In this document: piece by piece, positions 238-23,189 of the stretch
Numbering within the stretch: the first letter of the stretch is position 1
How the letters are laid out: every line of letters starts with the position of its first letter
From: Rhodospirillaceae bacterium
Lineage (GTDB): Bacteria > Pseudomonadota > Alphaproteobacteria > TMED109
DNA: 32,334 bases
Reading direction: 5' to 3'
NCBI GenBank assembly: GCA_902614225.1
Contig: CACMKJ010000008.1
Span: 1-32,334, forward strand
The notes under the pieces: generated by a model
Database searches by the model: none
What the model saw: the letters and a program-made list of their open reading frames with translations, nothing else
What the model was told of the DNA's origin: nothing
Translations under genes and position numbers: made by a program

Positions 238-708
238 TTAATTTCTTGAAAACTCTATATATGCTTTTTCTGATATCTTACATTTTTCGATAGAATAGTT
301 CGCTTCTTCAAAATATTTAATTCCATATTTGCATTCTGCACCTATTAAGTATTTCCAGGGACCAGTTCCGTCTACATACTTATTTATCCCGACTCCTGCA
401 TCAAATTCACTAGACTCTCTTTTTATAACTGACCAATTTTTATTTCCCTTATGATCTATAACCTCACATTTCATATTTAATTCAATACTTTTATTTTTAT
501 GAGTAGTAAATAAACCAAAACATTTATTTTTTCCATAATTACCAAAGTTATCTGTCCATAAACCAGAGGATTTTATATTTGTGTGTATAGTACCATTTTC
601 CAACTCATATTTTTCTTCTTCAACAGTAGCATAACTTGTAGTAATTAATTCTTTTGCATTAGAAGCATAAATACAAGAGAATAAAAGTATAGCAATCAAA
701 AATTTCAT
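238..708 (-). CDS. array paralog 1: secreted four-Cys protein, C-tail subfamily
   Basis: Family motifs WTDNFGNYGKNKC, MKCEV, FDAGVG, GTGPWKYLIGAECKYG, EKCKISEKAY; start at internal ATG 708 (MKFLIAILLF) favoured by promoter spacing over ORF-track start 732. Confidence 0.88.
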   Translation of the reverse strand: MKFLIAILLFSCIYASNAKELITTSYATVEEEKYELENGTIHTNIKSSGLWTDNFGNYGKNKCFGLFTTHKNKSIELNMKCEVIDHKGNKNWSVIKRESSEFDAGVGINKYVDGTGPWKYLIGAECKYGIKYFEEANYSIEKCKISEKAYIEFSRN

Positions 709-742
709 ACTTTTAATATAATAGGTTATCATAAATATCCAA
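709..742 (-). promoter_or_regulatory. promoter of paralog 1: TTGGAT-16-TATATT-6-ATG
   Basis: Same geometry as other array promoters; -10 ends 6 nt before ATG. Confidence 0.55.
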
Positions 743-999
743 ATAGAAATTTGACCTTACTTCAGGACACTTCTCTTTTAACTTTTCATCTTTCATTTTT
801 TCTTTTCATTGTAAATAGTTGTGATTACCTTTAAACTTTTTTTCTCTTGTACTAATATCTTTACCTACAAATCATTATTCAATCAACTGCTAGATATACT
901 TTCAATAATATTTACACAAAAATGATTTAAACCAAATATTCTTTACACAAAAAGATTTACACTAATTTAAAAAAAATAAAGATTTCTGAATGATACGAT

Positions 1000-1057
1000 A
1001 AAGAGCACGAGAATAATAATCCCAAAGTCGTAAGTTTAAATGTTGTTACCGCCACCA
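1000..1057 (+). pseudogene. decayed tRNA(CAU)-like 3' half, copy A
   Basis: aagagcacgagaataataatcccaaagtcgtaagtttaaatgttgttaccgccaCCA aligns with copy B (2928-2997); anticodon lost. Confidence 0.5.
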
Positions 1058-1159
1058 CAAATCTATAGTCAATCTAACTTTTAAAGGATTATTACTTCAC
1101 TAAAAATAGCTCAAATCTGTGATACAGTTTGAAAAAGTAAAAATATGGTACGAAATATA

Positions 1160-1187
1160 AGGACAAAGGAGATGTTTTTTATATAAT
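1160..1187 (+). promoter_or_regulatory. array promoter: AGGACA-16-TATAAT, 6 nt to ATG
   Basis: GGACA 1161-1165, TATAAT 1182-1187, ATG 1194. Confidence 0.75.
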
Positions 1188-1193
1188 GATTTT

Positions 1194-1655
1194 ATGAAAA
1201 TATTATTTATATTTATATACTTCTCTTTGATTAATTCATTATTTTCTTATGATTTTGAAATGGAAATTCTTTCTGTAGGTGATGAAAGAGACACTAACAT
1301 TTTTAAATACTCTGATACTATTACTTATAGGCATTTTAATAATACTACAAACTGGAAAGATAATTTAGGTGATTGGGGTAAATTACAATGTGCGGGTAAT
1401 CATACTATAATAAAGAATCAAGGCACAATACTTAAAAATTATTGTAAAGGTACAAATAAAGATGGTGATATTTTTTGGTTAATGATGGACAGAAAGTCAA
1501 ATGACTTTGATTCTGGTATTGGTACAATAGTATATGAAAAAGGCACTGGAAAATTTGAAAAATACGATGGTGCTCAATGTGTTTATGCAATTACGTTTCT
1601 TCCTGAAAGAGATGGATCATTTATTAAAAGTAAATGTAAATTTAATGATCAATAA
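1194..1655 (+). CDS. array paralog 2: secreted four-Cys protein, FWL subfamily
   Basis: Signal peptide MKILFIFIYFSLINSLFS; NWKDNLGDWGKLQC, YCKG, FWLMMDR, DSGIG, GTGKF, QCVYA, KCKF. Confidence 0.92.
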   Translation: MKILFIFIYFSLINSLFSYDFEMEILSVGDERDTNIFKYSDTITYRHFNNTTNWKDNLGDWGKLQCAGNHTIIKNQGTILKNYCKGTNKDGDIFWLMMDRKSNDFDSGIGTIVYEKGTGKFEKYDGAQCVYAITFLPERDGSFIKSKCKFNDQ

Positions 1656-1693
1656 TCTACTATCTTATATTTTAAAAACAAAATCGAAATACA

Positions 1694-1721
1694 AGGACAA
1701 CAAATAAGATTTGCATATACT
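1694..1721 (+). promoter_or_regulatory. array promoter: AGGACA-16-TATACT, 6 nt to ATG
   Basis: GGACA 1695-1699, TATACT 1716-1721, ATG 1728. Confidence 0.75.
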
Positions 1722-1727
1722 ATTTAT

Positions 1728-2183
1728 ATGAAATTTTTTTTAATTATATTTATTTTTTTATCTATTAATATTACTTATTCAGAAGAATTTTCTTTAAAAT
1801 GGAGTATAAGTGTTACAGTTTTAGACAATATTGAATTCATAGATGGTGGAAACTATGAAGTCAATAGAGCAGAAGGTTCATGGGAAGATAACAAAGGCTA
1901 CTATGGATACTTAAAATGTATAGGACCTTTACTAATTGATAAAGAAAAAAATTTGAAACTAGATTTAATCTGTGATGGATATGATAATAAAAATGATAAG
2001 TTTCAAATTAATTTAAAGAGAAATTCTTTTGAAGATGCGGGCATAGGCAAAGCAATCTATATTAGTGGTACTGGTAGATATTTAAATTTTATCAAAAAGG
2101 AATGCACATATGCAGTTAATTATTTAGATCCTAGAGAAAGGGGTAAAAGATTAGGATTTTATAAACAAATATGTAAGGACTAA
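1728..2183 (+). CDS. array paralog 3: secreted four-Cys protein
   Basis: Signal peptide; SWEDNKGYYGYLKC, LICDG, FQINLKRN, DAGIGK, GTGRY, KECTYAVNYL, QICKD. Confidence 0.9.
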   Translation: MKFFLIIFIFLSINITYSEEFSLKWSISVTVLDNIEFIDGGNYEVNRAEGSWEDNKGYYGYLKCIGPLLIDKEKNLKLDLICDGYDNKNDKFQINLKRNSFEDAGIGKAIYISGTGRYLNFIKKECTYAVNYLDPRERGKRLGFYKQICKD

Positions 2184-2230
2184 TTATTACATTCTGTAAT
2201 GTAGAGATTTAATATAGTAAACTTTTTTTA

Positions 2231-2680
2231 TTATTTTAATTGACATTTATGCTTTGAAAAAGCACTTTCATCTAAAAGTTTTACTGCATAAATACATTCA
2301 GTTCCAATCAGTTCTTTGTATTTACCTGTTCCAAAAATAAATTTTGATTTTCCAATACCAGCATCAAAATCTTCAGTATTTCTTCTTAGTTCTAACCAAA
2401 ACTTTTCATTATCTTGATTTTTGCCATCACAAAAACCCAATAATTTAGCATTACTGTTTTTATCTCCCAAATAAATATTAAATAGACATTTTAAAACTCC
2501 ATAATCTCCATATGAGTTTTGCCAGTTAGCAGTATTTTTTACATGTTGGTATTTAGTATTATTAGGGAAATCAATTATATCTATGTCATTAGAATTAATA
2601 CTAAAAAAAATTTCTACTTCAAAACTTTTTGCAGATAAATTAAAAAAAATAAAATAAAATAGTATGATTAAAATTTTCAT
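2231..2680 (-). CDS. array paralog 4: secreted four-Cys protein, FWL subfamily
   Basis: NWQNSYGDYGVLKC, GFCDG, FWLELRR, DAGIGK, GTGKYKELIGTECIYAV, HKCQLK; ATG at 2680 preferred over TTG at 2686. Confidence 0.9.
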   Translation of the reverse strand: MKILIILFYFIFFNLSAKSFEVEIFFSINSNDIDIIDFPNNTKYQHVKNTANWQNSYGDYGVLKCLFNIYLGDKNSNAKLLGFCDGKNQDNEKFWLELRRNTEDFDAGIGKSKFIFGTGKYKELIGTECIYAVKLLDESAFSKHKCQLK

Positions 2681-2927
2681 TAACAAATGTTATACTTTAT
2701 AAACAAAACTGCCAAATAAAATCTACTTTTCAAGAACTTAAAGAGATTTCTAATTATTCTGTCTAATAATAACAATTATTTATCATTTTTCATACAATCT
2801 ATCACTTACTTAACTTGCGAATATACATTAATAAAAATATTTACATTATTACGGTTTAAACCAAATGTTCTTTGCACAAAAAGATTTACACTCACATTTA
2901 TACTAACTAAAAAACCCAAGCTTTCTG

Positions 2928-2997
2928 CATGATTCTAAAAAAAAGTAGGGGAATCATAATCCTAAGGTCGCAAGTTTACATTTTGCCACCGCAACCA
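2928..2997 (+). pseudogene. decayed tRNA(CAU)-like sequence, copy B (best preserved)
   Basis: GGGGAATCATAATCCTAAGGTC GCAAG TTTACAT TTTGC CACCGCA A CCA: anticodon arm with CAT, T-arm pairing GCAAG/TTTGC, acceptor 3' strand and encoded CCA; D-arm/5' acceptor decayed. Confidence 0.6.
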
Positions 2998-3091
2998 CAA
3001 AACCACAGTCATTTTACATATAGAGATATTCAAAAATCAAAAAAAATTATTTTTTTCCCTTTTTACCCTTAAAAAATCAGAACGAAATATA

Positions 3092-3174
3092 AGGACAGCA
3101 GATGAATTTTTTTTCTATCGAGGATATTAAACACTTACTCATCATATTCAGTTTATATTTTCTTAGAATTTAAT
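3092..3174 (+). pseudogene. orphan array promoter plus signal-peptide relic of a deleted paralog
   Basis: AGGACA, 16 nt, TCTATC, exactly 6 nt (GAGGAT), then ATT AAA CAC TTA CTC ATC ATA TTC AGT TTA TAT TTT CTT AGA ATT TAA = (M>I)KHLLIIFSLYFLRI*. Confidence 0.55.
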
Positions 3175-3179
3175 TTTAC

Positions 3180-3221
3180 GTGTTGTTATTTTAAAACCGG
3201 GAGGAGATAAGATAACAACAC
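3180..3221. repeat. inverted repeat GTGTTGTTAT - 22 nt - ATAACAACAC, loop containing GGGAGGAGA
   Basis: Perfect 10-bp stem read directly. Confidence 0.65.
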
Positions 3222-3398
3222 ATTATAAATATACCATTTTAATATTTAAAAAAAATAACAACTAGATTTATTATATAATGAAATTAAATAACGGATCATG
3301 AAAATTATTTTTAATGGCAGCATTTAATTAAAAGATTATTGACAGGTCATAATTCTGTAATAAATAAATGATCTAATTGAAAATTATACGTATTTTAA

Positions 3399-3893
3399 TT
3401 AATCGTATTTAAAATTAACTATACGGTCATATGATGCTTTTGTAACATTACAAGAAGCATCAAAAAGATAATAATTTTGATCATGAACTGTTCTGAGTGC
3501 TCCTAAACATCTTGCACCAACTAACTCTTCAAATGGTCCAGTTCCATGAGTTATTTTAAATGGATTTACCTCTGCATCCAAATCTCCTCCAGGATCATCA
3601 TGAAAAGTCCAAAAAGAAAAACCGTTTTTTGCAATTCCTTTACATGTAATAAACTGTTTATTTATTTGCCCTTTACTATTTAATTCCATAGTTCCTGTAC
3701 ATTCACTAGAACCAAATAAACCAACGTTACTAGTAAAGGTATTTGAAGAGGTCCAATTAAATACAATTCCTTGATTATTTGGAAACTCAATAGTATTTTC
3801 AATTTTTTGTTTGCCGCCAAAAGACATTTTTACGGTTTCTGCATTAATAGAATTTATTATGAAGAAAAAAATTATAAAAAATAAACGATACAT
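3399..3893 (-). CDS. array paralog 5: most divergent member
   Basis: Signal peptide; FTSNVGLFGSSECTG, TCKG, FWTFHDDPGGDLDAEV, GTGPFEELVGARCLGAL, ASCNVT; keeps four Cys, lacks the conserved Arg. Confidence 0.82.
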   Translation of the reverse strand: MYRLFFIIFFFIINSINAETVKMSFGGKQKIENTIEFPNNQGIVFNWTSSNTFTSNVGLFGSSECTGTMELNSKGQINKQFITCKGIAKNGFSFWTFHDDPGGDLDAEVNPFKITHGTGPFEELVGARCLGALRTVHDQNYYLFDASCNVTKASYDRIVNFKYD

Positions 3894-4059
3894 AGCGCTT
3901 ATATTAATAATTTAGGAAAAAAAAACAAGATATTACTATTAATTAGTATAAAAATTAATTATTTTAAAAATTATAGTACTAGCTTTGCATTTAATTTCTT
4001 CAAGAACGTTTGTGTCTAATGTTTTACTCAAATAAAAAACTTAGAAAATCTGGTGAAAC

Positions 4060-4120
4060 AAAGATTAACTGTGAAATCATAATTTTAAAATCGTAATTTT
4101 TAATCTTGCTACTGCCACTT
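4060..4120 (+). pseudogene. decayed tRNA(CAU)-like 3' half, copy C
   Basis: ctgtgaaaTCATAAttttaaaaTCGtaatttttaatcTTGCtACtGCCActt aligns with copies A and B. Confidence 0.42.
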
Positions 4121-4215
4121 CATAATTATAACTAACTATACTTTTCAAGTAATAAAAATAAAAAAAAATTTAAAGCTGTGAAATACTTAGAAATTTAATA
4201 TAGTGAAAAAATATT

Positions 4216-4243
4216 AAGACAGAATAATAGATTAATATATGAT
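4216..4243 (+). promoter_or_regulatory. array promoter: AAGACA-16-TATGAT, 6 nt to ATG 4250
   Basis: Exact geometry if the second ATG (MKFIFTIKL) is the start. Confidence 0.65.
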
Positions 4244-4249
4244 ATGAAC

Positions 4250-4702
4250 ATGAAATTTATATTTACAATTAAACTTATCTTATTAGCAAACATATTATAC
4301 TCTAGTGACTTTGGAATTGAGATATTATCAAGTGACTCTGATGTAAGAGTTACAGAGATACCTGATGTAATGACTTATAGGCAGTTCCAAGTAAATTCAA
4401 ACTGGAAGGATACATTAGGTGATTGGGGTATATTAGAATGCACCGGCACGTTTACTTTATTAAAAGAAAATAAAACCATATTAAAAAATTACTGCAAAGG
4501 AACAAATGTTGAGGATGAAAATTTTTGGTTGATAATGGATAGAGAATCGGACAATTTTGACTCTGGAATAGGAGAAATTCAGTATGTGCAAGGTAATGGA
4601 AAATTTAAAAAATATATAGGAGCAAAATGTGTTTATGCTGTATCACATCTGAAAAGACGTATAGGAACATTCATAAAGGCAAAATGTGATTTAATAAAAT
4701 AA
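4250..4702 (+). CDS. array paralog 6: secreted four-Cys protein, close to paralog 2
   Basis: NWKDTLGDWGILEC, ILKNYCKGTN, FWLIMDRESDNFDSGIG, GNGKF, KCVYAV, KCDL; ORF-track start is 4244. Confidence 0.9.
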   Translation: MKFIFTIKLILLANILYSSDFGIEILSSDSDVRVTEIPDVMTYRQFQVNSNWKDTLGDWGILECTGTFTLLKENKTILKNYCKGTNVEDENFWLIMDRESDNFDSGIGEIQYVQGNGKFKKYIGAKCVYAVSHLKRRIGTFIKAKCDLIK

Positions 4703-4773
4703 AGTATAAAAATGTGCTTTTTAACTATATTATTGAAAATTTAAATATTTGAGTAGTCTAATTCAATACATAC

Positions 4774-5199
4774 ATGAAATACTTGATGGTTATATTTGCT
4801 TTATTAATGATGTCAGTTGCTTTTGGAATAGAGCCTAATAAAAAAGGTATTTTTTTAAAAAATATATTAGAAAGTTATAAATGGAAAAAAAGATTTTTAG
4901 TTCTTGTTACAAACAAAGAAGATATAGTTTTAATTAAAGAGGTTCAAAAATTTTTTAAAAATAATGAATGTAGAAATCATGAAAGAGAGTTAGAACTGAT
5001 TAAAATCATTATAGAAAAAGATTATGATCCACTGTTGCCACTTTATTTTAAAAACAAAAAAGGAATTTGGCTAATAGGGTATGACGGAAAAATAAAAGCA
5101 TATTCTCGAGATAATTCTTTATTATTAAATTTATATGACATAATAGATATTATGCCTATTAGAAAATTAGAAATAGAAGCGCCTTCAATTTATTATTAA
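4774..5199 (+). CDS. secreted DUF4174-like protein
   Basis: Signal peptide; LESYKWKKRFLVLVTN ... LYFKNKKGIWLIGYDGKIKAYS ... LYDIIDIMPIRKLEI resembles DUF4174. Confidence 0.7.
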   Translation: MKYLMVIFALLMMSVAFGIEPNKKGIFLKNILESYKWKKRFLVLVTNKEDIVLIKEVQKFFKNNECRNHERELELIKIIIEKDYDPLLPLYFKNKKGIWLIGYDGKIKAYSRDNSLLLNLYDIIDIMPIRKLEIEAPSIYY

Positions 5200-5212
5200 A
5201 TTATCTTATATT

Positions 5213-5428
5213 ATGATTTATAAAATTAAAGATAACTTAGGTATTGAATATGAAATTAAAGATATTAAAAAATTTGCTAGTCATATTTTTCAGTTTCATT
5301 CTTTTGGTATTTCATTACATCAAGAAAATGGCCATGATTTTACAGTAAATGCTGCTTTTAGAGAGAGAATATCTAAATTTCTAATAATAGAAAAAAATGA
5401 AAATACTAATAAAAGAAATATTAAATAA
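5213..5428 (+). CDS. small uncharacterised protein (FGISLHQENGHDFTVNAAFRERI)
   Basis: 71-aa ORF, first of a compact overlapping trio. Confidence 0.65.
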   Translation: MIYKIKDNLGIEYEIKDIKKFASHIFQFHSFGISLHQENGHDFTVNAAFRERISKFLIIEKNENTNKRNIK

Positions 5429-5663
5429 TAAATTTGAAGTAATAGTTAAAAATAAGATTAATACAAAACACACTGTCATAGTATCTGAGGAATATTATTT
5501 AAGTTTAACGTCAAAAAAAATATCTAAAAAAAAATTAATTGAGTATAGCTTTAAATTTCTTTTAAATAGAGAAGCTAATACATCAATTTTATCCTTCTTT
5601 GAACTAAATGTTATAACATCATATTTCCCTGACTTTGAGAGTGAAATAAAAAAATTATTGTAG
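5397..5663 (+). CDS. small uncharacterised protein with LLNREANTSILSFFELNVITSYFPDFE C-terminus
   Basis: 88-aa ORF overlapping the previous by 32 bp. Confidence 0.7.
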   Translation: MKILIKEILNNKFEVIVKNKINTKHTVIVSEEYYLSLTSKKISKKKLIEYSFKFLLNREANTSILSFFELNVITSYFPDFESEIKKLL

Positions 5664-5670
5664 TAATCTA

Positions 5671-5874
5671 TTGAGATACAGAAAAAAAAAATGTTACAGT
5701 TGTAATAGAGATAAGGAAATATTATATCGTTGTAGACATGATGAAATTTTCTTAGAAAGAAGCAGAGTCTATAAAAGTTGGTTTTTTGTTTGTGAATATT
5801 GTTTACAAGATATTAAAAAAAAATTTAAAAACTCTTATCAATATGGAGGAACCTGGAAAAGTAGAAAAAAATAA
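5671..5874 (+). CDS. small zinc-ribbon-like protein (CYSC...CEYC...YGGTWKSRKK)
   Basis: TTG start; two CxxC pairs; typical YGGTWK tail. Confidence 0.65.
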   Translation: MRYRKKKCYSCNRDKEILYRCRHDEIFLERSRVYKSWFFVCEYCLQDIKKKFKNSYQYGGTWKSRKK

Positions 5875-5935
5875 GTGATTAATTATTTTTTGAGTAAAAC
5901 TAAAAATATTTTTAAAATATTAGGAAAATAGATTT

Positions 5936-6421
5936 ATGGTAAGTATAATTAAAGGAACAAAATCATTAATATTTTATTTATTCATGTTTAATACAAATGT
6001 ATTTGCTGATATATATAATTTTAAATGGTACAACGAAGAGAAACAGAGCGACAAGATAGTATTACCAGATAATTCAAATTTTTTTTCATTTACTTCTTCA
6101 GGAATATGGGAAGATAATTTAGGAAATTATGGAGAGATGAAATGTGTTGTTTCATTATTTTCAGATAGCATGCAGGGTATTGAACTAATTGGGTATTGTG
6201 AAGCTAAAGATAATAAAGATGAGAAGTTTTGGACTAAATTAGATAGAACTTCTTCAGGGCAAGAGTTAGGAATTGGAAAAATGACCTTTTTGTCTGGTAC
6301 CTCTAAATACTCTAGGTTAAAAAACATAAGCTGCCCTTATGCAGTTGAATGGGTTGGAAGTGGAGGTATCTTGAAAGCAAGGTGCAGCAAAGAGATAAAT
6401 ATAAAGGGCCTATTAAAATAA
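5936..6421 (+). CDS. array paralog 7: secreted four-Cys protein, FW subfamily
   Basis: IWEDNLGNYGEMKC, GYCEA, FWTKLDR, LGIGK, GTSKY, SCPYAV, ARCSK. Confidence 0.9.
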   Translation: MVSIIKGTKSLIFYLFMFNTNVFADIYNFKWYNEEKQSDKIVLPDNSNFFSFTSSGIWEDNLGNYGEMKCVVSLFSDSMQGIELIGYCEAKDNKDEKFWTKLDRTSSGQELGIGKMTFLSGTSKYSRLKNISCPYAVEWVGSGGILKARCSKEINIKGLLK

Positions 6422-6516
6422 TGGATAATGCACTTATTAATTATAAAATTTAATTTAGAATGTTTTTAAAGTATTGACTAGAAATAAAGTATCAAATGCT
6501 ATAGTGTTGATAAATA

Positions 6517-6879
6517 ATGATAAAATTTAATTTACTACTTAAAGAACCACATTTAAAAGCAATCAGTGATCTTAAAGAAAAGTTTTTAGCTAAAAGTGAT
6601 CAAGAAATAGTAAATAAATGCATTGAGTCTGCACTAAATTTAAATAAAAATGATTTGATTTTTAGCACTGTAAAGGAAAAGTGTAGTGGGGGCTGCTTCG
6701 CATCTGAACCTCAATTTGAAATTGAATTAGATGAAAACACTTTTATGCAACTTAAAAAAATTTATATTAATAATAATTTTGATGATTATAAAACCGAAGA
6801 GGAAAGAATTAGTAAAGTTATCAGATGTATTATAAATTTTTTTGAGGATGAATCAAAACTAATAACTGTAAAATCCTAA
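6517..6879 (+). CDS. hypothetical protein, N-terminal ribbon-helix-helix-like segment
   Basis: LLLKEPHLKAISDLKEKFLAKSDQEIVNKCIESAL; two similar-looking halves; no signal peptide. Confidence 0.55.
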   Translation: MIKFNLLLKEPHLKAISDLKEKFLAKSDQEIVNKCIESALNLNKNDLIFSTVKEKCSGGCFASEPQFEIELDENTFMQLKKIYINNNFDDYKTEEERISKVIRCIINFFEDESKLITVKS

Positions 6880-6894
6880 ACTAAATTAAATAGG

Positions 6895-7029
6895 TCAAGA
6901 TTTTTTCTCGTCAGTATTATTTTTTTTCATTTTACCTTTTTTCTTGCATATTTTTTTAGCAATTAAACCTGACATTAATCCTAGAGAAATTCCTAGGATA
7001 GCTCCTCTTATAAATCCAAAAGCAAACAT
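6895..7029 (-). CDS. 44-aa single-TM protein MFAFGFIRGAILGISLGLMSGLIAKKICKKKGKMKKNNTDEKKS
   Basis: Read from reverse strand; below ORF-track cutoff. Confidence 0.45.
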   Translation of the reverse strand: MFAFGFIRGAILGISLGLMSGLIAKKICKKKGKMKKNNTDEKKS

Positions 7030-7168
7030 ATTTATATTCCCTGATTCATTTTTTTATAATATAAACATATAGTAATTAATTAGAATTTTAACAGTATATA
7101 TATTAAAAAATGTATATAAAAATTTTACATTAAATTTTTAAAGCAATGGTTTTTGAAAGAAAAATATA

Positions 7169-7196
7169 AGGACATCAGGAATTTTTTTTATATAAT
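7169..7196 (+). promoter_or_regulatory. array promoter: AGGACA-16-TATAAT, 6 nt to ATG
   Basis: GGACA 7170-7174, TATAAT 7191-7196, ATG 7203. Confidence 0.75.
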
Positions 7197-7202
7197 CATT
7201 AT

Positions 7203-7679
7203 ATGAAAAATAATTTAGTACTATTATTATGTTTTTTCTTATTTTCTAATTTGTATTCTGCAGAAATTGAAATGCAGAGTAATTCAAGAGTTAAATATGA
7301 TGAATTTATTTTCACAAACAAATCTAAATACATTATTATTAATCATGAGGGGCAATGGACTGATAGTATAGGTAATTATGGTTCTAATGAATGCAAAGGA
7401 TTAATAAAAAAAAATGAAAATGATGTAGTTTATTTTCTTGATGTGATTTGCGAGTTAGTTGACCAAAATAATCAAGTAACCTGGAGGAAGTTTGAAAGAA
7501 CGGGAAGTCAAATAGAGAGAGGCGTAGGTGTATCAACTATAATAGATACTACTAGCAAGTATAAAGATGAGTTGATTGGTACTAAATGTACTTATGCTGT
7601 TAATAGAACGAAAGATATGGTATTTGGTAAGTCAATTTGTAAAGTATCGGATGAATTATTTAAAAAATTAATAGAATAA
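7203..7679 (+). CDS. array paralog 8: secreted four-Cys protein, C-tail subfamily
   Basis: QWTDSIGNYGSNECKG, VICEL, RGVG, LIGTKCTYAV, ICKVSDELFKKLIE. Confidence 0.9.
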   Translation: MKNNLVLLLCFFLFSNLYSAEIEMQSNSRVKYDEFIFTNKSKYIIINHEGQWTDSIGNYGSNECKGLIKKNENDVVYFLDVICELVDQNNQVTWRKFERTGSQIERGVGVSTIIDTTSKYKDELIGTKCTYAVNRTKDMVFGKSICKVSDELFKKLIE

Positions 7680-7690
7680 GTCAGTTTTAA

Positions 7691-8140
7691 CTAATTTAGT
7701 TTACATTTATTATGTGCAAAGTTTTTATTATCTAAATATTTTATTGCATAAGAGCATCTAATCCCAATAAACTCCCTGTATTTTCCTGTAGCATCAAATA
7801 TAATACTCTTACCAACGCCTGCATCCGCATCTTGATTACCTTCTCTATTAACTCTGTGCCACATCTTTTCATTATCTTGATTTATATACTCATAAATATG
7901 GTCTAATTTAAAATAACTAGAATTTTTCTCTATAGGTCCCATGCATTTTATATGTCCATAATCCCCTAAATTATTTGTCCATGAACCTTCTCCTTTATAA
8001 ATTGAATATGTACCATTATTAGAATATGTAAAAGTATCAAGTATATATGATGCACTACCTTGAATTATCATTTCCTTTGAAAATGTTGCAAATGCAAAAA
8101 CAAAACTAAAAATAAACATTATAATTTTATAAAATATCAT
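7691..8140 (-). CDS. array paralog 9: secreted; second Cys replaced by Tyr
   Basis: SWTNNLGDYGHIKCMG, HIYEYINQ (TAT codon 7892-7894 instead of Cys), DAGVGK, IRCSYAIKYL, NKCKLN. Confidence 0.9.
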   Translation of the reverse strand: MIFYKIIMFIFSFVFAFATFSKEMIIQGSASYILDTFTYSNNGTYSIYKGEGSWTNNLGDYGHIKCMGPIEKNSSYFKLDHIYEYINQDNEKMWHRVNREGNQDADAGVGKSIIFDATGKYREFIGIRCSYAIKYLDNKNFAHNKCKLN

Positions 8141-8361: not shown

Positions 8362-8814
8362 ATGAAGAATTTTTTAATAATAATTATATTTTTATTAGTT
8401 CAAAAAAATTTCTGTGATGAAATACAAGAATGGACATTTAAATTTTCTGGGTTTATGGAATCAAAAACTATTAACTTCCCAAGTGGAGGAAAAGTTAACA
8501 ATTTTATTCAAAATGGTACATGGGAAGATAGTTTAGGTAATTATGGTAAAGGTTTTTGTTATGGAATAATTGAGTCTAAAGATAAAAAAGATAGCTTTTT
8601 TCAATACTACTGTGAAGTAAGCGATCAGGATAATGATAAATTTTTCACCAAAGGTACAAGAAAATCAGAAGATGCTAAAGCTGGCGTAGGTAAACAAACA
8701 ATAATTGATGGGTCTGGGAAATGGAAAAGCTTGATTGGCACAATATGTATTTATGGAGTAAAATATGTTGATGATGTCTTATTTGCCTTGCAAAAATGTA
8801 AGTTTTCTAATTAA
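8362..8814 (+). CDS. array paralog 10: secreted four-Cys protein
   Basis: TWEDSLGNYGKGFCYG, YYCEV, KAGVGK, GSGKWKSLIGTICIYGVKY, QKCKF. Confidence 0.9.
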   Translation: MKNFLIIIIFLLVQKNFCDEIQEWTFKFSGFMESKTINFPSGGKVNNFIQNGTWEDSLGNYGKGFCYGIIESKDKKDSFFQYYCEVSDQDNDKFFTKGTRKSEDAKAGVGKQTIIDGSGKWKSLIGTICIYGVKYVDDVLFALQKCKFSN

Positions 8815-8903
8815 TATTATTTTTTAATAAATAAAACATATAGTTGAAAATAATTTGTAGATTTTTAACTAAACTAAAAATTTTCACATAAAATATAATT
8901 ATG

Positions 8904-8931
8904 AGGACAGTGCTGAAGTTTTTTATATAAT
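8904..8931 (+). promoter_or_regulatory. array promoter: AGGACA-16-TATAAT, 6 nt to ATG
   Basis: GGACA 8905-8909, TATAAT 8926-8931, ATG 8938. Confidence 0.75.
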
Positions 8932-8937
8932 AAAAAT

Positions 8938-9414
8938 ATGAGAATTTTTATAGTTATATTTTTTTATTTTTTTTTATTACATCTCACTAGTGCAAAAACC
9001 CTTATAATTGATAGTGCAAGTAAAATTACTAATGATCAGGTATTTAATTTAAATAATGGGATGAAAATAATAGCATTTCATTTAGAAGGGCATACTAAAA
9101 ATAATTTAGGTTATTATGGTCAATCAAAATGTAATGGTATACGGGAAATGCAAGATGATAAATTATTAAAGCTAAATGTATTCTGTGAAATAATTTTTCA
9201 AGACGGAAGCAAAATCTGGTCAAAGTCAGAAAGAAGCGGAGAATTAAATCAAGCAGGAGTAGGGCGTTCAATATTTATAGATGCATCCAGTAAATTAAAA
9301 AGTCTTATTGGTACTGAATGCATATATGCTGTTAATAAAGTTTTAAATTCAGATTTTTTCAAGGCTAAGTGTAAAATATCTGAAGAGATATTCAATAAAC
9401 TTAAAATACAATAA
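8938..9414 (+). CDS. array paralog 11: secreted four-Cys protein, C-tail subfamily
   Basis: NNLGYYGQSKCNG, VFCEI, AGVGR, LIGTECIYAV, AKCKISEEIFNKLKIQ. Confidence 0.9.
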   Translation: MRIFIVIFFYFFLLHLTSAKTLIIDSASKITNDQVFNLNNGMKIIAFHLEGHTKNNLGYYGQSKCNGIREMQDDKLLKLNVFCEIIFQDGSKIWSKSERSGELNQAGVGRSIFIDASSKLKSLIGTECIYAVNKVLNSDFFKAKCKISEEIFNKLKIQ

Positions 9415-9417
9415 AAT

Positions 9418-9906
9418 ATGCAGTTTATTATTATTTTAATAACCATGTTAATTTCTTCTTTAAAAGCTGAAGATGAAAAGGAATACATAATAACAGGCTC
9501 AGATGACACTGTAATTAAGTCATTCCAATTAGAAAATAAAAGTAAATTTTCGAGTTTTACATCTAATGGAAGTTGGACTGACAATTATGGTAACTATGGA
9601 TTTACAAGTTGTATGGGGATAATGAATAAAAAATTTAAAAAGGTAGAGCTATATTTTATGTGTGAGTCAGAAGATAAAAATGGATATAAAATATGGACTA
9701 TAAGTAAAAGACAGTCAGAGTCAGAAACAAGCGGAGTAGGATCTTTTGAAATAGTTGACGCCACAATACCAAAGAAAGAGTTATATATAGGTAAAAAGTG
9801 TACGTACGCTGTTAAATATTTAAAGGAAACTAATTTTTATAAAAGTAAGTGTAAAATATCAGAAGAGCTTTCAAGAGTTTTTGAAGAAATGGGAGCAAGG
9901 AAATAG
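9418..9906 (+). CDS. array paralog 12: secreted four-Cys protein, C-tail subfamily, 3 nt after paralog 11
   Basis: SWTDNYGNYGFTSCMG, FMCES, SGVG, IGKKCTYAVKYL, SKCKISEELSRVFEE. Confidence 0.9.
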   Translation: MQFIIILITMLISSLKAEDEKEYIITGSDDTVIKSFQLENKSKFSSFTSNGSWTDNYGNYGFTSCMGIMNKKFKKVELYFMCESEDKNGYKIWTISKRQSESETSGVGSFEIVDATIPKKELYIGKKCTYAVKYLKETNFYKSKCKISEELSRVFEEMGARK

Positions 9907-9992
9907 ATTTAAAATGATTGTTAAATTAGTAGTTTTAGGAAAAATATTCTAAATCATAAATTATTTACTTGCTTAATATATTTTTAAAGTAC

Positions 9993-10021
9993 AGGACAAC
10001 AACAAAAAATTCTTGTAATAT
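9993..10021 (+). promoter_or_regulatory. array promoter: AGGACA-17-TAATAT, 6 nt to ATG
   Basis: GGACA 9994-9998, TAATAT 10016-10021, ATG 10028. Confidence 0.6.
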
Positions 10022-10027
10022 TTTATA

Positions 10028-10504
10028 ATGAAAAAATTAATAATATTTTCTTTATTCTTTACTTTTACTACTAAACTTTATGCAGAATTTTATATTGAGA
10101 GTACTATTACAGGCATTATAGAAAATGAAGGTTATCAATTGCCTAATGGAAATCAATTTTTAATGATAAAAGGAACTTATCAGTGGACAAATAATATAGG
10201 TTATTATGGAACAGCGACATGTAAAGGTTTATTAGAAAAAGAAGGTACTATATCTTCAATTAATTACCTATGTGAAGCAATAAATCAAAAGGGAGATAAG
10301 CAATATATTTTATCTAAAAGAAAATCTGCTGATTTACAATCTGGAGCAGGAAAGCAAATAGTTGTTGATGCAACAGGAAATGATAAAATTTTTATTGGAA
10401 CAGAGTGTAACTTTGCCATAAGTTATTTGAAAAATAATGCTTTTGCTAAGACTAAATGTCCAGTTAGTAAAGAGGTATATAATAAATATAAAAATAATTT
10501 ATAA
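10028..10504 (+). CDS. array paralog 13: secreted four-Cys protein, C-tail subfamily
   Basis: QWTNNIGYYGTATCKG, YLCEA, SGAGK, IGTECNFAISYL, TKCPVSKEVYNKY. Confidence 0.9.
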   Translation: MKKLIIFSLFFTFTTKLYAEFYIESTITGIIENEGYQLPNGNQFLMIKGTYQWTNNIGYYGTATCKGLLEKEGTISSINYLCEAINQKGDKQYILSKRKSADLQSGAGKQIVVDATGNDKIFIGTECNFAISYLKNNAFAKTKCPVSKEVYNKYKNNL

Positions 10505-10589
10505 GATCTAAATTAAAATATTTTTAAATAATATGAATAACAAAGTAATTTTAATAATAGATAAAGAAATAAATCAAAAAAATAAAGAC

Positions 10590-10607
10590 ATGAGAAAATT
10601 TTCTCAT
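10590..10607. repeat. 18-nt perfect palindrome ATGAGAAAATTTTCTCAT between convergent paralogs 13 and 14
   Basis: Read directly; possible bidirectional terminator or AT-rich chance palindrome. Confidence 0.5.
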
Positions 10608-10719
10608 AAAATTAGGATATGAAATTTTTTCATAGTTAGTAAATTTACTTACACTCTCATTTATACAAGTAGAAGAGGATAGCTTAAAAATAATAAAAAA
10701 TTTATTATTATTGCTATTT

Positions 10720-11160
10720 TTATAGTTTGCACTTTTGTTTATAAAACATTCTATCTTCAAAGTAGTTTACTGCATAAGGACATTTTTTTCCTTTTAGTGA
10801 TTTATATTTACCATCTCCGTAAATATATGTGGCAATTCCAATTCCTATTTCCATATCTGAAGTTCTATTTAAATTTAACCAAAACTTTTCTTCATTTTGA
10901 TTTTTTGCTTCACAAAAAGCTTGTAGAATATCAGAATTTTTTTGATTTTTCGTTGTTATGGTGGCAAGACAATTTATCACGCCATAGTCACCTTGAGTGT
11001 CCTTCCAATTAGCTGAGCCCTCTAATTGTATATATTTATTACCATTAGGAAAATTTATTTCTCTTTGATCTGTAACATGCATGTAGATCTCTAACTCAAA
11101 ACTACTTGATATAGATGTTCTAAATAAAAAAAGAGCTACTATAAGTATTAAAATTTTCAT
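10720..11160 (-). CDS. array paralog 14: secreted four-Cys protein, FWL subfamily
   Basis: NWKDTQGDYGVINC, AFCEA, FWLNLNR, IGIG, GDGKYKSLKGKKCPYAVNY, QKCKL. Confidence 0.9.
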   Translation of the reverse strand: MKILILIVALFLFRTSISSSFELEIYMHVTDQREINFPNGNKYIQLEGSANWKDTQGDYGVINCLATITTKNQKNSDILQAFCEAKNQNEEKFWLNLNRTSDMEIGIGIATYIYGDGKYKSLKGKKCPYAVNYFEDRMFYKQKCKL

Positions 11161-11318
11161 AATAAATACTACCTTATATAAGTTTTACTTTACTTTATAG
11201 AGCTAGTCTTTAAAAGAAAATTTTGTATAAATTTTTATTATCCTTCAAAATCATCAAGTTTTTAATTTAGATGATTAAACTTAATTATACTTTTTTTCTT
11301 AAAATCTTATAAAAAATG

Positions 11319-11346
11319 AGGACAGGAAAAAAAGATTTAATATAAT
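11319..11346 (+). promoter_or_regulatory. array promoter: AGGACA-16-TATAAT, 6 nt to ATG
   Basis: GGACA 11320-11324, TATAAT 11341-11346, ATG 11353. Confidence 0.75.
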
Positions 11347-11352
11347 ATAAAT

Positions 11353-11799
11353 ATGAAATCTTTTTTATTAACATTTTTAATTTTAAATGTAATTAGTTCT
11401 TCTTTTACGCAAGATATAATAATAGATGTAAGAGGTTATTATCAAAATGATGAAATAGTTATGAATAACGGAAATAAACTAGTTCATTTAAGTAGTAAGG
11501 GTAATTGGAATGACAATTTAAATAATTATGGAAGTGTTTTCTGTAAAGGAAGTATTATGATGAATAAGGATGGTAAAAGAAGTGACAGTGAATTGGTCCT
11601 ATGTGAAGCAGAAGATGTAAATGGAGATTTTTTTTGGTTAGTACCAAAAAGAAGTGACTCCGAGTGGGATGCAGGCGTAGGAAAGGCTTCTATAGTCTCT
11701 GCTACAGGAAAATATCAGAATTTATTAAACAAAAAATGCATTTATGCTGTTTCATATTATAAAGATACTTTTCATTCTAGAACAAAATGTGAAAAATAA
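11353..11799 (+). CDS. array paralog 15: secreted four-Cys protein, FWL subfamily
   Basis: NWNDNLNNYGSVFCKG, VLCEA, FFWLVPKR, DAGVGK, ATGKY, KKCIYAVSYY, TKCEK. Confidence 0.9.
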   Translation: MKSFLLTFLILNVISSSFTQDIIIDVRGYYQNDEIVMNNGNKLVHLSSKGNWNDNLNNYGSVFCKGSIMMNKDGKRSDSELVLCEAEDVNGDFFWLVPKRSDSEWDAGVGKASIVSATGKYQNLLNKKCIYAVSYYKDTFHSRTKCEK

Positions 11800-11841
11800 T
11801 TGATGTAATAGATTAGTGAAAGAATATTTGATCAAGTAATT

Positions 11842-12298
11842 ATGAAAATTATTTTAATTTTACTTTTGAATTTTATTATTCATTTTTTATTTTCAGATGA
11901 TATCTATAAATATAGAATTATATTTAGTACAACCAACTACGATTGACCTTCCTGACTGAAGCATATTTTAAATTGTTTTTGGTAAGGGAGGATTGATCCA
12001 TAATAAGGGAAATTTGGAGATATACTAGCCATAGAACAAGAGAGGCTGATATGAATAATAATCTACTAGATACTAATGTATTATTTGTACTAGAAAAGGA
12101 TAAAAAAATAAATTTTGGGGAAAAGCAATTAGAAAAAATTCAGGCACTGATGCTCGTGGAGGTGTCATGTTTCTTATTATAGCGGGAATTAGAGAATTTG
12201 AAAATTTAGTTGAAAAAAAGTGCAACTATGCACTTGCTGCAACAAAAAAATTTACTGTTATGCAAGATAATATCTATAAAATAGTAGCTAATAATTAA
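11842..12298 (+). pseudogene. frameshifted paralog of the array family
   Basis: Signal peptide MKIILILLLNFIIHFLFSDDIYKY... stops at TGA; middle TNVLFVLEKDKKINF; then shifted frame DARGGVMFLIIAGIREFENLVEKKCNYALAATKKFTVMQ matching DAGVGKxxIIxGTGKxxxLIGxxCxYAV. Confidence 0.8.
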
Positions 12299-12354
12299 AA
12301 TTATTTATGTAATTTACCTATTGTAAAATTTAATTTAATAAATAAACTAATTAT

Positions 12355-12651
12355 ATGTTCTTAAGAATCGGAATTATGAAATTTCCCTCTCAGGATAAAA
12401 TGGATGCTTATATTGCTATGCTTGAGAGTGTATTTGTTAAAAGATTTCAAGAGGATACACTTATGCTCCAACATTTAGTTGTTAAAACAGGAGAGGCTAA
12501 ACTTGCAGGTTATGGTTTATATAAGTCAAAAGAAGATTTTCTTAAAACAGGTAGTAGAACAAAAAAAATGCTTACTGATTTTGTTAAATCTCAGGATGGT
12601 ATTGTAGAGTTTAATGATGGCGAAGTTATTGTAAACTGGGAAAGAGAGTAG
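12355..12651 (+). CDS. hypothetical cytosolic protein, possibly dimeric alpha/beta-barrel (ABM-like)
   Basis: 98-aa ORF without signal peptide. Confidence 0.55.
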   Translation: MFLRIGIMKFPSQDKMDAYIAMLESVFVKRFQEDTLMLQHLVVKTGEAKLAGYGLYKSKEDFLKTGSRTKKMLTDFVKSQDGIVEFNDGEVIVNWERE

Positions 12652-12785
12652 AAAGTTTTTAAACAAATATTGTTTAGTAAAAAATACTTTTTACTTGTTT
12701 CTTGGGAGTAAATTTAAAATGAATATATTCTCTAAAATTTTATATAAATATTTATAATGTCAATCTTTTCAGAGATTCTAAAATA

Positions 12786-13274
12786 GTGATTATTGTTAAA
12801 AATATTCTTTTTATCATATTTTTTTTTATTTTGAAGAACTCATATTCTAAAGAATATGACTTAATTTATAATTTTAGTGGATCATTTGAAAAGAATGAAA
12901 TGGTATTTTTAGATAATAGTAAACTTACCCACAATGTTTATGAAGCAGAGTGGACTGATAATTATGGGAATTATGGTACTTCTTATTGTTTAACAAGTAT
13001 CAAGTATGATTCAAAAAAAATAATTATCAGACTAGATAGTTATTGTAGACTTAAAGACCAGGAGGGTAACATTTTTACTCAATATAATGGTAGGGCAGGA
13101 AATGAGCTTAATGCAGGAAGTGGAAAAGTAAAATTTATCGAGGGTCAAAAAAAATGGAAATTTTTAATTGGAGCCGAATGTTTATATTCAATTAAATATT
13201 TAGAAAATAGAACATTTAGTATTAGAAAATGTAAGATCACAAAAGACATGCATGATAAATTATTAAATCAATAA
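12786..13274 (+). CDS. array paralog 16: secreted four-Cys protein, C-tail subfamily
   Basis: GTG start; EWTDNYGNYGTSYC, SYCRL, AGSGK, LIGAECLYSIKYL, RKCKITKDMHDKLL. Confidence 0.88.
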   Translation: MIIVKNILFIIFFFILKNSYSKEYDLIYNFSGSFEKNEMVFLDNSKLTHNVYEAEWTDNYGNYGTSYCLTSIKYDSKKIIIRLDSYCRLKDQEGNIFTQYNGRAGNELNAGSGKVKFIEGQKKWKFLIGAECLYSIKYLENRTFSIRKCKITKDMHDKLLNQ

Positions 13275-13754
13275 ATGTTAAGGGCAATCATTATATATTG
13301 TTTGTTATTTACTTATAACAGTTGGTCTAAAGATATCGTATTTAAAATGGAAGGGAGTGGAAGAGGCATAGAATACGAAGTAATGAGTTTAGATGAAAAA
13401 AACAAGGTTATTTTATATAAAACAGAAGGTAATTTTAAAACAGATTTGGACCTTTATGGAGGCATGGATTGTTTAGGGGTTTTTAAAAAAATTAATAGTG
13501 CAGCAGATTTAGATTTAACGTGCGAATTTGTTGATCAAAATAATGACAAAATGTGGGCATCTTTGATTAGAAAAACAGAGGATATTGATGCAGGAGTAGG
13601 AAGGGTTTTTATTATAGGAGGAACAGGAAGATGGAAGTATTTATCAGGATCTGATTGCAAATATGCTGTTAAACTTAATAAATCAATTTGGTTTACTTCA
13701 ACAATTTGTGATATAGAAGAGTATAAGTATTTAAAATTTATAGAAAGATTGTAA
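13275..13754 (+). CDS. array paralog 17: secreted four-Cys protein, C-tail subfamily, abutting paralog 16
   Basis: LDLYGGMDCLG, LTCEF, DAGVGR, GTGRWKYLSGSDCKYAV, TICDIEEYKYLKFIERL; ATG directly follows TAA. Confidence 0.9.
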   Translation: MLRAIIIYCLLFTYNSWSKDIVFKMEGSGRGIEYEVMSLDEKNKVILYKTEGNFKTDLDLYGGMDCLGVFKKINSAADLDLTCEFVDQNNDKMWASLIRKTEDIDAGVGRVFIIGGTGRWKYLSGSDCKYAVKLNKSIWFTSTICDIEEYKYLKFIERL

Positions 13755-13813
13755 ATTTATTTAAGAATAAAACTATATTTCGTCTCTGAAAAAATACTTT
13801 TATTTTATTAGTA

Positions 13814-13841
13814 TTGAAATAGTAAAAAAGATAGATAACAT
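13814..13841 (+). promoter_or_regulatory. array promoter: TTGAAA-16-TAACAT, 6 nt to ATG 13848
   Basis: Geometry matches if the second ATG is used. Confidence 0.55.
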
Positions 13842-13847
13842 GGCATG

Positions 13848-14294
13848 ATGCATAAATTAGTAATGATAGTTTTCTTATTTTATTTTAACTCTATTAGTTT
13901 AAAAGCTGAGGAGTATAAACTTGAAATGTTTTTTACAAATAATTTTGAAATTATAAAATTTCCAGATAAAAGTATGTATTATCATGTAAGTGGAACTGGG
14001 GTTTGGAAGGACTCTTATGGTGATTATGGCAATATGCAATGTTATGGCAGAATTTTAGAAAGTAAAGAGAGAAGCACTAATCTAGATATTTTTTGTGATG
14101 CCGTAGATCAAAATAATTTAAAGTTTTGGTTAAGACTGGCAAGAGACTCAGATCAAACTGATGCTGGGGTAGGCACTACAACTTACTTATATGGTGAAAA
14201 AAAATATAATAAACTTGTTGATAAAAAATGTATTTATGCGTCTAAAATTTTTGGGAAAAATGCAATTGTTAATCAAAAATGTAAAATTAACTAA
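13848..14294 (+). CDS. array paralog 18: secreted four-Cys protein, FWL subfamily
   Basis: VWKDSYGDYGNMQCYG, IFCDA, FWLRLAR, DAGVG, KKCIYA, QKCKIN; ORF-track start 13845. Confidence 0.9.
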   Translation: MHKLVMIVFLFYFNSISLKAEEYKLEMFFTNNFEIIKFPDKSMYYHVSGTGVWKDSYGDYGNMQCYGRILESKERSTNLDIFCDAVDQNNLKFWLRLARDSDQTDAGVGTTTYLYGEKKYNKLVDKKCIYASKIFGKNAIVNQKCKIN

Positions 14295-14360
14295 CACTTT
14301 ATAAAAAATTTTTAGCGTAGTCCCTAAATAATATTTTGATTGAGTTTAAATAAAAAGAGC

Positions 14361-15032
14361 CTATTCTAAGGCCATTTCCCAAAAATCAGTTTCTAATAAA
14401 GTAGAGGTTTTAAATATATTAATTAATTTTTTCCATTTATATGTTTTTTTATAGTTTTTTCCTAATCTTAATTTTATTGCATTATCGAAAAGCTTACCCA
14501 CTTCCTGAGAAATATTTTGATATTCTTCACTTGAATAAGTCTGTATCCATTTTTGATACATTTGATTTGATGGTTTGCTATTTTTAATTTTTAAACCTAT
14601 CTCAGCATAGCCAAGAACGCATGGCATAAGAGCACAAATTAAATCTAAAAAATCTCCTGAATGACCACAATTAAGTACATATCTAGTATAAGCAATATTT
14701 TTATTTTTTTCAGTTGCATTAACTAAAGTATGTTTTTTTATACCATAGCTTTTGCATAAATTAATATGTAAATCCATTTCAAAATTTATTAAACCGTTTA
14801 CTGTATTAGAACAGATTTTCATTTCTTCTAAGTTTTCCGATTTAACTATTGCTAAAGACCATGCCTTTGAAAATTGAATTAGAAATAGGTAATCTTGAAT
14901 TAAGTAATTAATGAATTTACTTTTTTGAAGAGTATTATTTGAAAGTCTTTTTATAAAACTGTGGTTAGTATAGTATTTCCATTCTTTTGCAGTTTTTTTT
15001 TTAAGTATTAAGAAACTCTGCCCATAAAACAT
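14361..15032 (-). CDS. tenA: TenA / thiaminase II-family protein
   Basis: HSFIKRLSNNTLQKSKFINYLIQDYLFL...ALMPCVLGYAEIG...YSSEEYQN...ETDFWEMAL typical of TenA. Confidence 0.8.
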   Translation of the reverse strand: MFYGQSFLILKKKTAKEWKYYTNHSFIKRLSNNTLQKSKFINYLIQDYLFLIQFSKAWSLAIVKSENLEEMKICSNTVNGLINFEMDLHINLCKSYGIKKHTLVNATEKNKNIAYTRYVLNCGHSGDFLDLICALMPCVLGYAEIGLKIKNSKPSNQMYQKWIQTYSSEEYQNISQEVGKLFDNAIKLRLGKNYKKTYKWKKLINIFKTSTLLETDFWEMALE

Positions 15033-15211
15033 AAAAATACCTCTCTGTATATTTAATTTATAATTATGTTAATAAATTTATTATATGATATCTTAAGAAT
15101 AATATATATATTCATTTATGCTTTAATTATTATATTAAAAATTTATGATTAACGGAGCAACAAATTACACTTTATATAGATTGATAATAATTGAATATTA
15201 ATTAAAAAAAA

Positions 15212-15655
15212 ATGAAATTTATAAAACTCATAATAGGACTAGTTTTTTTCAACTCATTTCTAAGCGCTGAAGACTTTAAAAGAGAAGGTTCAGGTTTTAG
15301 TGAGACAGAGGAGTTTTTGTATGATAATAATAAGGTTATTAATTATAAAAATCAAACAACTTGGAAGGATAGTATAGGTAATTATGGAATATCTAAATGT
15401 TTAGGCCTTATAGTATCTGATAAAAAAAATAATATTATAGATTATAAAATGTATTGTAATTATACAGATCAAAATGAAGATAAGTTTACGCATAAATACG
15501 AAAGAGATACTGACTTTTCTGCTGGAGTAGGCAGTAGTATTATAATTTCTGGTACAGGAAAATGGGTAAAATATATTGGCACCAGCTGTACTTATGCTAT
15601 AGATTATTTGAGTAAAGCACTTTTCATTGTTGAAAAATGTAATTCTAGTCAATAA
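15212..15655 (+). CDS. array paralog 19: secreted four-Cys protein (last copy)
   Basis: TWKDSIGNYGISKCLG, MYCNY, AGVGS, GTGKWVKYIGTSCTYAI, EKCNS. Confidence 0.9.
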   Translation: MKFIKLIIGLVFFNSFLSAEDFKREGSGFSETEEFLYDNNKVINYKNQTTWKDSIGNYGISKCLGLIVSDKKNNIIDYKMYCNYTDQNEDKFTHKYERDTDFSAGVGSSIIISGTGKWVKYIGTSCTYAIDYLSKALFIVEKCNSSQ

Positions 15656-22335: not shown

Positions 22336-22347
22336 AATTACCCTTCT

Positions 22348-23121: not shown

Positions 23122-23170
23122 ATTTGTTGACCCTCTCAGTTAACCAAATTATATTAATTAGATAAATAAT

Positions 23171-23186: not shown

Positions 23187-23189
23187 TTT

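Follow-up and report, generated by a model that had tools for sequence, protein, structure and literature searches.

How a marine alphaproteobacterium came to carry dozens of different genes for one family of small exported proteins, and what it may gain from them, is the question raised by a 32,334-nt stretch of DNA from a Rhodospirillaceae bacterium (GCA_902614225.1, contig CACMKJ010000008.1; hereafter the window). Positions 238-15655 of the window hold 19 intact open reading frames (ORFs) of 146-164 amino acids (aa), 14 on the plus strand and five on the minus strand (starting at 238, 2231, 3399, 7691 and 10720), and our ORF re-check agrees on all of these points with the original prediction, which had been made from the sequence alone. 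The explanation that we favour, whose chances we judge to be evenly balanced, is that the array belongs to a tRNA-targeted additive island carrying exchangeable, non-redundant periplasmic barrels, each subtype of which would hold a different small ligand.

An undescribed family expanded in three genera

The 19 members align from end to end with 24-39% identity to the first sequence. G67, C71, C134 and C151 are invariant in this alignment, and C89, R105, G113 and G115 are nearly so. The core Cys, Gly and Arg motifs named in the original prediction thus stand, but not in every copy, as the member at 7691 has a Tyr instead of the second Cys, the member at 3399 lacks both the conserved Arg and G-V-G, and the terminal K-C-K is common rather than universal. 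A profile search also recovered a 20th, decayed copy (Table 1), indicating that family copies are lost as well as gained. Since non-family genes stand between the members at 4774, 6517, 12355 and 14361, the region is better described as an island rich in genes than as a tandem array of the family alone.

A profile built from the 19 members gave 37 matches beyond those of the window in the same genome (1.06 Mb in 71 contigs, 55% complete, the window being contig C8), with E-values down to 1.8e-43. This genome holds 57 matches altogether, and the true copy number is probably higher, given that many of them lie near contig ends. In a class-wide scan, only two of the 190 genomes had family matches, one of them being the window's own; together with the 37 additional matches, this places the array far beyond chance. 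Among 28 genomes of the order (one family, eight genera, g1-g8), there are 5-57 copies per genome in g1, g3 and g6 and 0-3 weak matches in g2, g4, g5 and g7, while the family was not found in the larger-genomed g8. The expansions are therefore confined to three genera of one marine alphaproteobacterial order. The named genomes from these genera are marine single-cell and metagenome-assembled genomes (e.g., AG-919-G06, AG-390-K05, SP3058, SP81 and TMED93). Distant single-copy relatives occur in SAR116 genomes.

Searches of Pfam, NCBIfam, PADLOC and PDB sequences returned nothing credible for the family, and PHROGs gave no significant match. The Pfam models of allene oxide cyclase (AOC)-type barrels (Dirigent PF03018, allene oxide cyclase, DUF3224 and DUF3237) matched none of the 19 members at E up to 1, nor did they match the distant relatives L124 and L125. 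A match to a CIM metallo-beta-lactamase concerned one member only (E 1.3e-4) and was not counted. We rejected a viral origin of the family, because two viral-contig scans, a phage collection and a viral structure library all yielded no match.

Predicted structure of the exported proteins

The copies begin with a hydrophobic signal segment that starts with lysine and has Ser or Ala at its end. We used 188 near-complete members from seven genomes to count cleavage sites, Cys patterns and sequence clusters. None of these members has a lipobox; Ser or Ala occupies position -1 in ~80% of them, with no conserved Cys after it, so that general-route export into the periplasm is the default prediction from the signal sequence alone. 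AlphaFold, applied to the 19-sequence alignment, returned a model (predicted local distance difference test, pLDDT, 94; predicted template modelling score, pTM, 0.81) that comprises eight antiparallel strands in addition to a signal helix, and a short helix ahead of the last hairpin. The same fold was predicted for member 5 (pLDDT 91), the most divergent in the window; the two modelled members are ~24% identical to each other. Foldseek hits for both models are dominated by PloI4, PyrI4, AbyU, AbmU, dirigent proteins, AOC2, DUF3237 and DUF3224 (template modelling scores 0.42-0.72, several at a root mean square deviation of 2.5-4 A). On these models, we are confident in assigning an eight-stranded antiparallel barrel of the AOC/dirigent/DUF3237 type.

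The strand limits in the model place C71 opposite C89, and C134 opposite C151, in neighbouring strands. Among the 188 members, 145 have all four Cys (CCCC), 35 keep only the second pair (..CC), four only the first (CC..) and three neither (....), with one exception to this pairing, and in the tree the paired changes occurred on at least seven and two independent occasions. Because the Cys are lost in pairs, C71-C89 and C134-C151 are almost certainly disulfides. DsbB is encoded in the genome of the window and in most related genomes. Charged residues make up 6% of positions on the Cys-bearing strand faces vs 34% on the opposite face, and we accordingly take the former to line the lumen. The non-Cys positions of these faces are about as variable as the outside (2.98 vs 2.85 bits), and an uncharged, variable lumen face is what would be expected of pockets with different specificities. 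In characterised AOC-type barrels, the lumen is where small molecules are bound or converted (PMC10946715, PMC12607616): that of spirotetronate cyclases serves as the active site and contains a mostly hydrophobic pocket (PMC10946715), and for one DUF3237 protein the decarboxylation of a lignan acid has been predicted (PMC12607616).

Several features anticipated in the original prediction are hence borne out, namely export by the signal segment, two disulfides by the strictly paired loss of Cys, and an allene-oxide-cyclase/DUF3224-like small beta-barrel by AlphaFold and Foldseek. The tRNA-derived attachment sites, the predicted leaderless promoters that members have in common and the family copies outside the window lay beyond its view.

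Exchange of copies and the units that carry them

No pair of copies within any of the seven genomes reaches 70% identity, the maximum being 63%. At this threshold, the 188 members fall into 132 clusters, 92 of which occur in one genome only (Chao2 estimate ~250). Single copies shared across genera are 90-97% identical, and the synonymous divergence (dS) of cross-genus family pairs goes down to 0.12-0.5; for the same genera, dS is ~0.9-2.2 for housekeeping genes (motA, motB, rpoN, metY and others), and neighbouring ortholog sets have a median dS of ~1.1-1.8. A few non-family genes beside the arrays likewise show low dS, suggesting that the whole zone is exchanged. Of its 54 copies, the window's genome shares five with the same-genus genome G003, whose housekeeping proteins are 88-99% identical, and six with G017 from another genus (70% identity). 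Homology between transferred copies spans blocks of ~400-1070 bp with different neighbourhoods. As transfer and ancient orthology both give mixed genome labels in a tree, such labels alone are insufficient, and we judged transfer by dS and patchiness. By these comparisons, the copies are best described as ancient subtypes that have moved horizontally. The absence of near-duplicates, the low cross-genus dS and the scarcity of same-genome sister pairs in the tree (two observed vs 10.5 expected by shuffling) together point to a repertoire that draws on a common pool and stays non-redundant, and not to one built by recent tandem duplication. Close family pairs have nonsynonymous-to-synonymous rate ratios (dN/dS) of 0.05-0.28, so that purifying selection acts on recent pairs.

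Cassettes are bounded by direct repeats of a partial tRNA gene, and three such sites lie in the window. Along the arrays of G000, G001, G003 and G004, a copy of the 3' half of tRNA-Met is repeated, sitting ~85-120 bp before a promoter-like element that we call element B, which consists of AAATATAAGGACA, nine bases and TTTTTTATATAAT, followed by six bases to the ATG. We searched for these attachment (att) units with an nhmmer profile seeded only outside the window (best E of the reversed control, 6.1), and the first unit found in the window stops 6 nt short of the ATG of member 2. The tRNA-Met units also precede MORN_2 and DUF4174 genes, and both families are present in the window (15709 and 4774). 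The intact tRNA-Met of the window's genome is on contig C12, adjoining three family genes, and C20 has more tRNA-Met repeats; C12, C20 and C8 are therefore probably parts of one island. Other arrays have repeated 3' parts of tRNA-Ser(TGA) and additional copies that resemble the full-length gene. Contig C5 of G001 (L154, L155) carries three tRNA-Ser(TGA) copies within ~14 kb, with family genes near two of them, which looks like repeated insertion at one tRNA.

An occupied and an empty site are available for a tRNA-Ser location, not for the window's own island. In G004 (L163:2567-4986), two tRNA-Ser(TGA) copies flank a 2.3-kb insert that contains one family gene and a tyrosine integrase, and in G003 (L150:4939-5028) the same chromosomal stretch is contiguous, with a single tRNA-Ser(TGA). 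A tyrosine recombinase adjoins tRNA-Ser in L163 and L182; at the array start on contig C6 of G017, an integrase lies behind tRNA-Ser(GGA). Integrase-like ORFs were noted at two array starts with a second promoter-like element, element A (see below), namely one of 393 aa directly behind tRNA-Ser(GGA) (L182:2543-3953) and one of 543 aa (L143:13259-14887).

Elements A and B are two of three short elements that recur upstream of copies. Element A consists of TTGATA and, 17 bases on, a -10-like TATTAT; the third, element C, is shorter. In one case element A lies directly behind the 3' end of tRNA-Ser(GGA). At an initial look, element A was considered as an integron attC site, but it is better read as a promoter. 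Allowing three mismatches at most, elements A and B are restricted to expansion-carrying genomes, and the control with reversed patterns gave no match. Of 195 members, 52 have a TATAAT-like box at a distance of exactly 6 nt from the ATG, compared with 28 of 432 other genes, and on this spacing leaderless transcription is predicted for about one in four family members. Element-B-like promoters were also seen in front of two other ORFs, one of 140 aa that is similar to a (p)ppGpp-hydrolase-type HD protein (L157:5343-5377) and a membrane-protein-like one of 638 aa (L184:3464-3494); the genes behind these two promoters are possibly co-regulated.

The features of the island are listed in Table 1. 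Beside the island lie motB, motA and rpoN (window 21178-25479; genome GC ~25%), and the array is not beside motA in those relatives that have long flanks. To the right of the array there are further exported proteins, with Adhesin_E (17573-17983), fasciclin-like (19498-20109) and Lcl_C (23190-23699) domains. The array neighbours in L138-L185 repeatedly include small proteins (90-165 aa) of ABM-, GYD- and SnoaL-like types, which stand among the family genes along with ECH and SDR enzymes.

Table 1. Family members, island cargo, promoter elements and attachment units in the window.
Feature	Position	Strand	Basis
Family member 1	238..732	-	ORF, alignment, profile; AlphaFold model
Family member 2	1194..1655	+	ORF, alignment, profile
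Family member 3	1728..2183	+	ORF, alignment, profile
Family member 4	2231..2686	-	ORF, alignment, profile
Family member 5, most divergent in the window (18-25% identity), same predicted fold	3399..3893	-	ORF, alignment, AlphaFold
Family member 6, start probably 4250	4244..4702	+	ORF, alignment, profile
Family member 7	5936..6421	+	ORF, alignment, profile
Family member 8	7203..7679	+	ORF, alignment, profile
Family member 9, second Cys replaced by Tyr	7691..8140	-	ORF, alignment
Family member 10	8362..8814	+	ORF, alignment, profile
Family member 11	8938..9414	+	ORF, alignment, profile
Family member 12	9418..9906	+	ORF, alignment, profile
Family member 13	10028..10504	+	ORF, alignment, profile
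Family member 14	10720..11160	-	ORF, alignment, profile
Family member 15	11353..11799	+	ORF, alignment, profile
Decayed family copy, nine in-frame stops	11870..12256	+	Profile match, E 2.2e-6
Family member 16	12786..13274	+	ORF, alignment, profile
Family member 17	13275..13754	+	ORF, alignment, profile
Family member 18	13845..14294	+	ORF, alignment, profile
Family member 19	15212..15655	+	ORF, alignment, profile
Cargo: exported DUF4174 protein; G001 relative behind the same att and promoter unit	4774..5199	+	
Cargo: 120-aa protein, function not assigned; relatives beside arrays in G001 and G010	6517..6879	+	
Cargo: small ORF resembling ~100-aa ORFs recurrent beside arrays; no Pfam match	12355..12651	+	
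TenA/THI-4 protein inside the array	14361..15032	-	E 8.3e-44
Exported MORN_2-repeat protein, right edge of the array; relatives behind att and promoter units (L141, L164)	15709..16428	+	
Element B, AAATATAAGGACA-N9-TTTTTTATATAAT, predicted leaderless, before member 2	1153..1187	+	
Element B variant, before member 3	1687..1721	+	Sequence
Element B variant, before member 6	4209..4243	+	Sequence
Element B, before member 8	7162..7196	+	
Element B, before member 11	8897..8931	+	
Element B variant, before member 13	9987..10021	+	Sequence
Element B, before member 15	11312..11346	+	
Att unit: degenerate tRNA-Met 3' half, spacer and predicted leaderless promoter	1016..1188	+	nhmmer, E 2.1e-29
Att unit: tRNA-Met 3' half and left end	2955..3114	+	nhmmer, E 4.8e-28
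Decayed att unit, tRNA-Met 3' half	4078..4158	+	nhmmer, E 0.024

Possible roles of the repertoire and its significance

In the explanation that we favour, the array is part of an additive genomic island that grows as small units insert, one after another, at a tRNA-Met gene, with sister islands using tRNA-Ser genes. Each tRNA-Met unit brings, in this order, the tRNA 3' half, ~100 bp, a promoter whose -10 box stands 6-7 nt before the ATG, giving a message predicted to be leaderless, and one or a few cargo genes. The commonest cargo is the new exported barrel family of AOC fold, its eight strands braced by two hairpin disulfides; the units are exchanged between species and genera, and each genome keeps dozens of subtypes without near-duplicates. 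Computation supports the fold, the Cys pairing, the att sites, the promoter spacing, the exchange across genera, the non-redundancy and the purifying selection, and what follows is proposed on that ground. The proteins would work in the periplasm, each subtype holding a different small, mostly hydrophobic ligand in its uncharged, variable lumen so as to capture, neutralise or convert it, and the cell would gain by owning many different pockets.

Several observations weigh against this explanation. On the side of the island, no recognised class of promoter was assigned to about three quarters of the members, decay has affected the window's inner att sites, and no integrase was found on the tRNA-Met contigs of the window's genome (C8, C12 and C20). 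As for the function, the arrays have no constant partner gene beside them, the neighbours being varied metabolic genes. Furthermore, the lumen was assigned from residue alternation rather than from coordinates, and ligand binding is suggested by analogy to distant fold relatives. The family shares with the AOC-type barrels (PloI4, PyrI4, AbyU, dirigent, AOC, DUF3237 and DUF3224) a barrel of eight strands in which a short helix precedes the last hairpin, but differs from them in sequence (8-16% identity), bacterial export, two hairpin disulfides and dozens of copies per genome.

Alternatively, each exported barrel might block the adsorption or DNA entry of a particular phage, the island shuffling single-gene defences. 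Mobility, fast turnover, non-redundancy and single-gene units would suit defence and superinfection-exclusion genes, and marine flexible islands often carry phage-related functions (PMC10872708). However, the searches described above gave no PADLOC match for the 19 members and none of significance in PHROGs, and neither phage records nor the two viral-contig scans contained a relative; no known exclusion protein of this fold came up; and the neighbours are metabolic rather than defence genes. We thus regard phage exclusion as unlikely. That the members are extracytoplasmic enzymes (cyclases, decarboxylases or isomerases), with one substrate per subtype and linked to the small-molecule enzymes of the island, appears improbable to us. 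The characterised fold relatives are enzymes, and ECH, SDR, ABM, GYD and SnoaL-like proteins are found among the island neighbours, but among polar residues strong conservation is restricted to R105, the motif around G64-G67 and G113-G115 seems to have a structural role, and the neighbour genes are inconsistent.

A large, mobile, exported and diversified single-gene repertoire also resembles the arrays of orphan immunity proteins that would act in the periplasm against many competitor-delivered toxins. This possibility is decidedly improbable, as no cognate toxin gene stands beside members among the scanned neighbours, a sheath gene of the type VI secretion system is found in none of the 28 order genomes, and recent pairs are under purifying selection. 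Could the genes be mere passengers, sustained without host benefit by a promoter-bearing mobile cassette? The island units do bring their own promoters and decay in place, but selection on the protein product is evident from the low dN/dS and from the retention of Cys in disulfide pairs, and near-duplicates are missing within genomes, making this very improbable. Finally, the local tandem duplication and positive selection of a surface adhesin or competition protein, to which the many divergent adjacent copies and the diversifying surface or extracellular function suggested in the original prediction would point, is hardly tenable given that no within-genome pair reaches 70% identity, that the closest relatives are in other genomes with few same-genome sisters, and that dN/dS indicates purifying selection.

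For the island that we favour, there are precedents. In integron cassette arrays, most units hold one gene, a recombination site is repeated and the exported cargo is diverse, and the units described here may by analogy be likened to them in all three respects, but here the repeat is a tRNA 3' half rather than attC, each unit has its own promoter, and several members are inverted. Additive flexible islands with tRNA-fragment repeats have been described in streamlined aquatic bacteria, namely Actinomarinales (PMC7771536) and Methylopumilus (PMC10872708), and they share with our case the cassettes at tRNA genes marked by partial-tRNA direct repeats and the exchange between genera; in our case, however, one protein family dominates the cargo, and a conserved promoter, predicted to be leaderless, adjoins the cargo ATG at the att-proximal end. 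As in our case, a tRNA target and cargo are features of the tycheposons, which were described in Prochlorococcus and reported in Methylophilaceae (PMC10872708) and have a tyrosine recombinase; here such a recombinase lies at tRNA-Ser sites, none was found on the tRNA-Met contigs, and the units are ~1-3 kb. Accordingly, additive islands with tRNA fragments and tRNA-targeting tycheposons with a tyrosine recombinase are known already, whereas four things appear to be new, namely the family of cargo proteins, the extent to which it dominates, its non-redundancy, and the promoter that the tRNA-Met units carry at their att-proximal end.

More tentatively, and with the odds against it, tRNA-based, promoter-bearing single-gene cassettes may shuffle at least ~130-250 subtypes of one secreted binding protein across species and genera of streamlined ocean bacteria and so provide every lineage with a non-redundant set of its own, which would amount to a heritable, exchangeable repertoire of extracytoplasmic recognition. 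Streamlined ocean bacteria usually keep few paralogs, yet the genome of the window devotes ~2.4% of its assembled DNA to one undescribed exported family. In this family, a fold of a ligand-binding type is combined with a cassette mechanism by which single subtypes spread from genus to genus, and it thereby becomes testable in what way and for what reason streamlined bacteria maintain and exchange large sets of secreted proteins. Each cell line holds its own non-repeating set of what may be small-molecule binding proteins, and if ligand binding is true, the family would be a natural library of binding pockets.

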